Of a stretch of 64,000 bases of DNA, positions 15,739-18,700 are shown one piece after another (position 1 is the first letter of the stretch; every line of letters starts with the position of its first letter). The notes under the pieces are model-generated. The model saw nothing but the letters and a program-made list of their open reading frames with translations, ran no database searches and was not told where the DNA came from. Source of the DNA: Tetradesmus obliquus (taxonomy: Eukaryota; Chlorophyta; Chlorophyceae; Sphaeropleales; Scenedesmaceae). The stretch is taken from positions 248,001 through 312,000 of the forward strand of contig CP126198.1 in the NCBI GenBank assembly GCA_030272155.1, read 5' to 3'. The position numbers and the translations under genes are program-made.

Positions 15739-18700
15739 ATGGCCGACGCATCAAACATTTGTGCTGCTGCCGTCTCTGTTTCTGTATTGTTTACTTTGCT
15801 TGCTGTGAGACATTTGTGTTTCTGTCTCAAACGGGTGCAATGCTGCATTGCCCGAGTTACTGGTCAGCAGGCAACAAGCTGTGCTTTTGTCATTCAGCTG
15901 TATGGTGATGGGGCAAAAGCTTGACCATACAGGTGTTCCCACCAGGCTATGTGTTGTTCTGTCCAAACCAAACTCATTGGCAGCAGTCTGCCATAGTAGA
16001 AGCACCGAGTGTTTTCAGGTCGTGTTACCTACCCAAAACTAAACCGAGCATGATTTCAGCTCTCCCTGTTCCACACACCATCAATCGCCACGACACAACA
16101 GGTTTGTACAGTGTTTTGAAACTACAATCTGTTGGTTCCGCGAGCAAATCAGCACCTGACCTGGCACAGCTGGGTATGGTACAAACGTAGCATCTGCATT
16201 TTGCAACAAATCAACACAGATTGCAAGCAGACAGCCATGCTGGCATAGCAACCTGCTGTATGTGGCAGGCACAGTAAGGCACAGCTGCCAGTGCTGCTGC
16301 TTTGGTTTGCTTGCATCCCAACTGCACAGCAGGGCCCCCACCTGCCAGCAGCAGCAGCTTCAAACTGCTAGTAATTTTGAGCTCCAGAATTCGCCTTGAT
16401 CACACAAGAAGGATGTTTGCAGGAAACTGTGTAGAATACTAGTCCTCAACAAACTCTGTGCAGCCACACTAGCTGCACGCGCGCAGCAGCTGCCGGTGGG
16501 CCTGAAGCGGTGTTGCGCACTATGTAACAGATATGACAGTTGAAACTGTATGTGCAGCGCACAGCGCCAAGCAGCAGAGCGCAACAGCAGCGGCAGGGCA
16601 CTTGGCACACCAGAACTGCAGTGCCTGATCAGCCAGCAAGGGAAGCCCAGAAGTATTACATTACACATCAAAACATGTTGCAGGCAGCAGCACCCACAGC
16701 AACACTCTACAGCGCAAGTTAACATATGTAACAGTCGAGTCGGGGCACTTCAGGGCAACGTGTTTTTAGCTCTTTTCTTGCAGTACACTATGCCACTGCT
16801 AACAGCTCAAATTGATTTAGATTCGTCGTTGAAAGCTTGACATTTATATGTAGGCCACTTGTTCGCTACGTTTGTACCATGCCCAGCTGAGACCGGTCAA
16901 ACTCCATGATGCCGCAGGCTGTTGTTTGACCTGACCAGTTACTTCTGTTCACACTGCTGCTAGAAGCACAGCTAACATATCCATACGTTTTGGATTCATG
17001 CCTGCAGGGGGGCTGTCCATGGTGCGCAAGCACCCTTCAGGATGGAAGAGCAACCGCAGCACCACGGCCATGAGGGTGGCGGCGGTGGTGTGTGTGATAA
17101 TGGCTTTGACCACAGCTGACGAAAAGTTTACGCCCGCATATTATTACAGAGAGCAGTACCCTGACTACGCCAAGGAGGTACACGGGGACCTGAACCGGTT
17201 CTGCAAACTTCATCACAAGAACTTCACAGCAAACGGCACAGTGGCTACACCCAAGCATGGCGGCAGGCCCTCAAATGTCCCACATGCTGTCGCCTTCCAT
17301 GCCAGCACAATATTCAAGGCTGGCAAGGTGGTAAAGGCCTACCCATCGGCAGATTCAAAGAGAAAGGTCGATGTGCACGTGTGGTGGACTTCGATCGAAG
17401 TCGCATGTCAGGAAAATGACACACTGCGCCAGCTGTGCACTGACTACAACATCACACCCAAGAGACTGCTGAAGTACATGAAATGGGCTGACCCCGACCT
17501 GGTGCGCAGGAGAATAGATGTGAAGCTGGACTTGACAAAGATACAGAAACAAAGGCGAAAGGCAGCAGCTGCGGCGCTGTGGCAGAAGTACCAAAGTGAC
17601 CCCGACATGCTGCAGCGCATATATTTCATTGATGAGTGCAAATTCTGGATGTCAGACCTGGCAGGCGGCTCCGTCAAGGTCTATTGTGATGCACACGATG
17701 AAAACGTGCATGCTGTGCTGCCATGCAAATGGATGCGCAAGGGCAAGGACGCAGAGCCGGTCAAGTTGCACTTTGTCTGCGCCGTCAACGCTGTGCACGG
17801 GCCCGTCTACTGCAAGTTTGTCACCGGCACAACAGACAACAAGGACCATGCTGGCAACCTCAATGTACCGTACATGGTGAGTGTGCGCTGCTACTGCGCA
17901 GGCGCCTGCCATCGAAAGACATGCCAGCCCTGCTGTACTGTGTAGTAACAGTCCCGCAGTGCTTTTTTTAGTGCTGTAGTGAAGCTGCAGCGCTGCCCGT
18001 CCTCTGCTGTGAACATAACAGCAGAGTAACTTGGTGACAGTACAATGACACAACCTGCAGCAGCAAGCTGGAAACCAATGTGCAAGGATTGGTGCATGTC
18101 ACATCCGCGCGTGCTCACGCGCAGCACACTGCCCCCTGGCTGCAGCCAGTTGTCATATGCTGCAGCGCAGAACTCAAAGTCGCGCTCCAGCACCTGCTGC
18201 CTGCTGCTGCTGTAATAACCCTTGTCATGACATGAGCCATCAGCTTGAATCAGCATGTTGTGCTGTGCATGGAGGAAATCAATCCGCCCATCCCACCAGT
18301 CCACTGCTACCTGAGCACACATACTGCTGCTGATGCCTAACCAATACAGCATGCACACCAGCTGCTCCTCGCTTGTGTGCATGTAGCCCATGCATGTGCC
18401 AACCATATCAGCCAGCACACATGCACACATCTTGCACTGAAGCGCTGCTGCTGTGGCGACTGCACGCGGCGCGCAGAACTTGAAGTGCTGCACACCTGGC
18501 AAGCAGCCAGTCAAGCCCCAGAACAATCTCTGCCCCCTCATAGACTTGGTGATGTTTCTGACCTTGTCTGCACTGAGCCTGATGTAGAAGCGTCCCATCG
18601 CATCCATCCACACCGCTGCGTTGCGCTCCTGCGCTGCTAACAAGGCTGCGCGCTGCCAATCCGGCAATTCTTGCACCTGCAGTTGAAGGACAAACCAACC

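Follow-up and report, generated by a model that had tools for sequence, protein, structure and literature searches.

A nuclease-like gene that probably interlocks with the transposase gene of a transposon with long terminal direct repeats in Tetradesmus obliquus

Most of the window, which is the 64-kb stretch of DNA analysed here (positions 1-64000, from a 104.66-Mb genome of T. obliquus in 17 contigs), consists of 10,568-bp units that are nearly identical and arranged in tandem (30001-40568, 40569-51136, 51137-61704, and parts of others), and a transposon sits in one of these units. The whole element spans 16167-21171, begins with CA and ends with TG, and consists of an internal region (INT) flanked by two long terminal direct repeats (LTDRs), each with its own inverted ends (Table 1). 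Four matching empty sites with a single GCA exist in neighbouring units, from which it follows that 5005 bp were inserted and 3 bp of the target duplicated. Matching 3-bp duplications were found for 10 of the 11 main-family insertions or arrays, the window included, several of them being read by eye where the exact end motif failed; the exception is C16:4319k, whose right end could not be located. The duplicated bases vary (gca, aat, atc, gac, ggc, tac, ggt, tca, gtt and aca). A seed from transposase exon 1 occurs at 273 places in the genome and the main-family LTDR seed at 176; 5 of the 100 LTDR seeds listed stand alone and are candidate solo LTDRs. Apart from the transposon, a reverse transcriptase match (RVT_1, E = 1.9e-20) was found in an ORF at 37847-38941 within the 10,568-bp array, and a Gln-rich open frame of 534 codons on the minus strand, at 13487-15088, had no match in Pfam at E up to 0.01. 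The genome abounds in CAG/CTG repeats with long open frames.

Table 1. Positions in the window of the transposon, its insertion site and its two predicted genes
Feature	Position	Strand	Remarks
Target site duplication GCA, left	16164-16166		from empty sites and flanks
Left LTDR, 723 bp	16167-16889	+	25-bp inverted ends at 16167-16191 and 16865-16889
INT, 3559 bp	16890-20448		between the two repeats
Transposase exon 1	16998-17876	+	start ATG to donor; contains FIDE
Transposase intron	17877-18682	+	806 bp, GTGAGT...GCACCTGCAG; sites kept in subfamily 2 and the C6 copy
Transposase intron, ends	17877-18682	+	GTGAGT...CACCTGCAG
Antisense exon 2	17891-18676	-	261 codons and stop; C58/C68/C81/C84/C86, SEEQL, IDF, IQADG.CHD, RD, VLRV
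CTGCAG palindrome	18677-18682		3' splice site of both genes
Proposed antisense intron	18677-19310	-	encloses transposase exon 2
Transposase exon 2	18683-19201	+	DDE_3, E = 4.2e-5; stop 19199-19201
Proposed antisense exon 1	19311-19385	-	25 codons, then donor GTGAGC; length, ATG and donor alike in three diverged versions
Right LTDR, 723 bp	20449-21171	+	identical to left LTDR
Target site duplication GCA, right	21172-21174		from empty sites and flanks
Empty sites in neighbouring 10,568-bp units	31683-31802, 42251-42370, 52819-52938, 63387-63506	+ (31683-31802)	119 of 120 columns equal the joined flanks with one GCA

The element also occurs in tandem. An array of ten units on C17 measures 43,543 bp (10 x 4282 + 723) with ACA at both ends, a dimer on C7 is flanked by GAC on either side, and an array of a diverged subfamily (subfamily 2) on C4, at about 125,266-275,372 (~150 kb), contains 38 transposase seeds and has CAT at both ends. 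Each of these arrays seems to have grown from a single insertion, because there is one target duplication only, at the outer ends. Unit spacing inside arrays is 4282 or 3562, and the frequency of the 3562 spacing in many arrays suggests that junctions lacking an LTDR are common. The only such junction seen, an INT-INT junction with the sequence GTCT-CAG-AGAC (L017, C16 near 915 kb), has lost the repeat and retained CAG, which is like a 3-base excision footprint and recalls Tc1-type footprints. Long satellite-like arrays of whole transposons, homogeneous within each array, were observed on C4, on C13 (1,053-1,265 kb), on C12 (3,950-4,043 kb) and on C5 (1,160-1,268 kb).

Removal of the intron at 17877-18682 joins, in the sequence reading, the exon with FIDE to an exon with IFDN in phase. 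The 806-bp transposase intron that the first-pass annotation had postulated to unite the DDE residues is thus supported, its splice sites also being kept in diverged copies. For the second exon, which matches DDE_3 in Pfam, the nearest NCBIfam entries are IS630 transposases (E = 1.9e-4, far below cut-off), and the predicted spliced transposase yields only DDE_3 in Pfam at E = 5.2e-5, below cut-off, while the subfamily-2 transposase reaches 28.9 bits, just over the cut-off of 28.6. The transposase exons of the window and subfamily 2 are 66-71% identical, and the dN/dS of the transposase between the main family and subfamily 2 is 0.34. Other families of DDE_3-type transposases (SPDLNPIE type) exist in the genome (L055-L058).

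On the opposite strand, a frame is open from 18844 to a stop at 17893-17891, 14 bp inside the transposase donor. It covers 263 codons of the intron, and its first ATG, at 18607, would give 238 aa; the antisense ORF over nearly the whole intron is therefore exactly as it had been described (238-263 aa). The length of the frame is by itself no more than suggestive of a gene: when 2000 sequences with the same composition were generated by a first-order Markov model, 0.35% had an open frame of at least 263 codons in some frame. In a protein search of the same genome, 125 of 280 candidates were scored, all of which cover residues 1-317 of the frame with at least 98% identity; no stop was present in 113 of them, one TGA in 11 (the C17 group) and a TAA in one. 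The TGA of the C17 group corresponds, in the haplotype examined, to residue 311 of the 317-aa frame, the residue-level reading of damaged copies being based on loci L019, L029 and L031. Because the main-family copies are near-identical, they say little about selection, and the decisive point for considering the minus frame as a gene is that the diverged subfamily keeps the same frame open. Subfamily 2, located on C4, C6, C10 and C13, was found by a degenerate pattern excluding the window's own codons, which hit 304 places, main-family places included, with at most one mismatch versus 18 for a control pattern, and five of its copies were used in the comparisons below.

Between the window and subfamily 2, the 317-aa frame stays open at 53-57% protein identity, and the intron part is 72% identical in DNA with no stops in either. 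The dN/dS of the antisense frame between subfamilies is 0.487 (72.0 synonymous and 145.0 nonsynonymous differences), in comparison with a mean of 0.92 in a neutral simulation, where a value as low as 0.487 was reached in 1 of 2000 runs. Stops in the frame number 0 versus 6.6 expected under neutrality (2 of 2000 simulations were stop-free), and the other five frames of the intron have dN/dS of 0.61-1.15 with 5-17 stop-bearing codon pairs. The nucleotide alignment of antisense exon 2 from the window and from copy L060 has a single indel, of 9 bp. Constraint is shown between subfamilies and not within them, because the figures inside subfamily 2 are near neutral (dN/dS 0.57-1.08); L060 and L063 differ by 2.0 synonymous and 7.0 nonsynonymous changes, with no sign of recent constraint. 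The frame has a premature stop in L062 and is broken in L070, and it is still fully open in an old copy on C6 (L061, L065 and L066; C6:5538300-5543900) in which transposase exon 2 no longer runs in one frame. Of the three points on which the first-pass annotation had let its proposal depend, the third being a nuclease-like fold, two are accordingly found: homologs of the minus frame in the diverged subfamily, and purifying selection on it as a dN/dS below the neutral value. Judging from these sequence comparisons, the minus frame across the transposase intron is a gene on which purifying selection has acted between subfamilies.

The start of the gene most probably lies beyond the transposase intron, in an exon of its own at 19385-19311. 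On the minus strand past the transposase stop, the alignment of the window and L060 reveals in both an ATG, a length of 75 nt and GTGAGC, and this 75-nt exon with its ATG and GTGAGC is found in all 30 main-family loci L009-L038 and also in L069, L070, L060 and the older C6 copy. The peptide of 25 codons is MAPAHRRRRAVRTHRSPTSRGAVRK in L060 and MAPSHRRRRTVRTHSSSTSRGAVRK in the C6 copy, between which five codon changes are silent and four are not, and a run of RRRR is kept although three of its four Arg codons differ. Splicing to the acceptor ACTGCAG/GTG (18677/18676) keeps the frame, and the conservation of exon 2 begins exactly there (VQ.LP.WQR.ALLAA). No ATG in exon 2 or the intron part is shared by the window and subfamily 2: the ATG at 18607 is absent from subfamily 2, and the first exon-2 Met of the latter is Leu in the window. 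A long pyrimidine run before the antisense acceptor in L060 and the C6 copy represents poly-Lys codons on the transposase strand, as illustrated by L060, where CTTCTTCTTCTTCTGCCTCTTCAA precedes the nuclease acceptor and corresponds to KKKK of the transposase on the opposite strand; CACCTGCAGTT is present in 45 of the 72 loci compared, and the remainder are mostly loci from elsewhere. All four splice sites are kept in the main, L060 and C6 versions, from which we infer that both introns are spliced. The plus-strand order is transposase exon 1, nuclease exon 2, transposase exon 2 and nuclease exon 1, the coding parts of which do not overlap and are separated by spacers of 14 bp, 6 bp (CTGCAG) and 109 bp. 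Because antisense exon 1 lies beyond transposase exon 2, the intron of each gene would hold an exon of the other.

This arrangement bears on other ways of explaining the open frame. The first-pass annotation had regarded it as a gene nested in the intron of the transposase, and had named a former homing element among the possible origins of the intron; these two readings are set aside because the conserved first exon proposed at 19311-19385 is outside the intron; the gene as proposed does not lie as a whole within one host intron. A single-exon gene confined to the transposase intron, starting at 18607 or with a non-ATG codon, would agree with the presence of that ATG in the window copy and with a frame that is open up to 18844, and the block at 19311-19385 would then be part of the transposase 3' UTR or a product of chance. 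The absence of the ATG from subfamily 2, together with the preservation of the ATG, the 75-nt length, the phase and GTGAGC of the outside block in three versions, makes this structure quite unlikely. Far less probable still is that no protein is made and that the frame is open as a side effect of composition and of conservation acting on the transposase intron itself, for which the 0.35% of random sequences with frames this long and the richness of the genome in CAG/CTG repeats with long open frames might be cited: the dN/dS, the missing stops and the conserved first exon all speak against it, and a frame open by chance was rejected on the basis of the dN/dS and the stop-free diverged copies.

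The predicted antisense product comprises 286 aa, with a basic 25-aa start, a Cys cluster and then a DUF559/Vsr-like core; within exon 2, the five invariant Cys residues (58, 68, 81, 84 and 86) are followed by SEEQL, IDF/VDF, IQADG.CHD, an R-D helix and GGSVLRV. DUF559 (PF04480) is the only Pfam family found at E up to 10 in all four versions, with scores of 14.3, 11.8, 12.1 and 12.2 bits that are all below the gathering cut-off of 20.6, and no His-Me family was obtained for the antisense protein at E up to 10 in Pfam. A genome-wide search with PF04480 gave no signal. With a DUF559 profile built from 11 bacterial proteins (YcjD and ten plasmid-borne DUF559 proteins), three nuclease versions ranked 1-3 (12.3, 11.3 and 10.9 bits) above 259 ORFs of the window and 2000 shuffles, the best of which reached 9.1; a score was obtained for 1315 of the 2262 sequences. 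The hhalign score of 23.35 exceeded those of all 200 column shuffles (best 22.7) with a probability of only 6.4%. Vsr alone, used for comparison, gave no match to the antisense protein, and a PHROGs regulator scored as well as DUF559 for one version (E = 0.048). The usual catalytic E of E-x-D-G is replaced by Q144 in all four versions. AlphaFold models, with mean pLDDT of 40.5 for the whole protein and 53.8 for the core, were too poor to use, and the fold search had no useful match. In the copy at L029 (C16:922368), D189N alters the D of the IDF motif.

When E. coli YcjD and Vsr are taken as examples of DUF559/Vsr-type endonucleases, the likeness lies in the order of a helix with E, a D-F strand, DG..H, an R-D helix and a VLR strand, whereas the antisense protein differs in scoring below the Pfam cut-off, in having Q for the usual E and in its extra Cys cluster and C-terminal region. 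The nuclease-like core recognized earlier persists as a DUF559-like resemblance, weak but above controls. The EDxHD endonucleases are another group to consider for their motif spacing and Vsr likeness. The candidate residues here would be E103/E104, D133, H150 and D167, the last of which is N in L060. EDxHD homing endonucleases are phage enzymes of group I introns (PMC3943268) with an active site like that of restriction enzymes, and their variable "x" might leave room for the Q. The antisense protein is probably (about three chances in four) a divergent restriction-enzyme-like nuclease, and is called a putative nuclease in this sense.

As for the element as a whole, the DDE_3-type catalytic domain with YSPD.N.PIE is shared with Tc1/mariner and IS630 elements, from which the 3-bp non-TA target duplications, the long direct repeats and the second gene distinguish it; membership in Tc1/mariner was rejected because the target duplications are varied 3-bp sequences instead of TA. 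The closest known system, by architecture and by the nuclease on the complementary strand, is KolobokP (Kojima and Bao 2022, PMC9587614), which was reported from seven animal phyla and is described there as LTDR-INT-LTDR, with repeats that have their own short inverted ends, target duplications of 3-5 bp, (LTDR-INT)n-LTDR multimers, INT-INT forms and LTDR loss, and with a DDD/E transposase and a His-Me finger nuclease on the complementary strand. The present element resembles it in LTDRs with their own terminal inverted repeats, in target duplications of 3 bp, in multimers with target duplications at the outer ends only (C17, C7 and C4), in an INT-INT form that has lost its LTDR and in the combination of a DDE-type transposase with a nuclease-like gene on the complementary strand. 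It differs from KolobokP, as far as the consulted part of that paper goes, in its ends (5'-RR...YY-3' there, CA...TG here), its LTDR length (about 450 or 660 bp there, 723 bp here), its inverted ends (up to 18 there, 25 bp here), its nuclease (His-Me finger there, DUF559/Vsr-like here) and its interlocked exons, which that part does not describe for KolobokP. The DDE_3/IS630-like transposase, for which Pfam gives only DDE_3, may also point to another superfamily. Repeat length, terminal dinucleotides and nuclease type led us to reject membership in KolobokP. The statement in the first-pass annotation that it knew of no described system with this layout must therefore be narrowed: KolobokP possesses the repeat architecture and the opposite-strand nuclease, and the interlocked exons are what the consulted part of its description does not contain. 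Searches of open-licence PMC papers turned up no account of a transposase and a nuclease whose exons interlock. ISL2EU (PMC4482050), which combines a DDE transposase with a second ORF that has a YqaJ exonuclease domain and is given there as of unknown function, is a looser parallel than KolobokP; its target duplications are AT, its transposase is of the THAP-bearing PHIS type, it has no LTDR, and interlocking goes unmentioned in the part of that source consulted.

The best explanation as a whole, to which we assign a probability of roughly 0.7, is a two-exon nuclease-like gene interlocked with the transposase gene in an LTDR-INT-LTDR transposon, with one CTGCAG serving as the acceptor of both. 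The transposase would recognize the LTDR ends and move the whole unit or remove a single LTDR, the second protein would act as a nuclease that cuts the element at the LTDR or a junction, and repair of the cut with a misaligned copy could add units in place. Transcribed from opposite strands, the two genes might limit each other's expression. The weakest part of this scheme is what the second protein does, and a role in transposition is an equal rival. Arrays might grow without this protein, through ordinary unequal exchange of their direct repeats or because circles insert, and the protein might instead serve transposition, for example as a second end-cutting subunit. Direct repeats alone permit unequal exchange, the CAG at the junction that lost its LTDR fits cutting near LTDR ends, both routes have been offered for KolobokP (PMC9587614), and nothing speaks directly against such growth, the likelihood of which we place only a little short of even. 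That the protein is real and not a nuclease is rather unlikely. It would then have a zinc-type Cys cluster and work alongside the transposase by binding DNA or as a regulator, comparable to the second ORF of those transposons in which that ORF is DNA-binding, in keeping with the invariant C58, C68, C81, C84 and C86, the basic 25-aa start, the DUF559 scores under the cut-off, the Q in place of E and the failure of fold searches with poor models to return a nuclease; but all three tested versions outrank 2259 controls in the DUF559 profile, and SEEQL, IDF, H150, RD and VLRV follow one another in DUF559 order.

A wider proposal, which we put forward tentatively and at somewhat less than even odds, is that the interlocked pair marks a new lineage of composite transposons, which arose independently of KolobokP. 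One palindromic acceptor would tie its DDE_3-type transposase to its DUF559/Vsr-like nuclease on the opposite strand, loss or change of either exon set always affecting the other, and the nuclease would enlarge a single insertion in place to satellite-like arrays that reach about 150 kb. The element would represent a second case of a rare design, that is, terminal direct repeats with a transposase, an opposite-strand nuclease and tandem multimers, built with enzymes that look unrelated to those of KolobokP. The nuclease-induced unequal exchange that Kojima and Bao speculatively proposed for KolobokP multimers (PMC9587614) would thereby become comparable between two lineages, and testable. Two genes interlocked around one palindromic acceptor would be packed unusually tightly. 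In the arrays, a possible path can be seen that leads directly from a single transposon insertion to a satellite, and with this element ideas on how mobile DNA might multiply where it has inserted can be put to the test.
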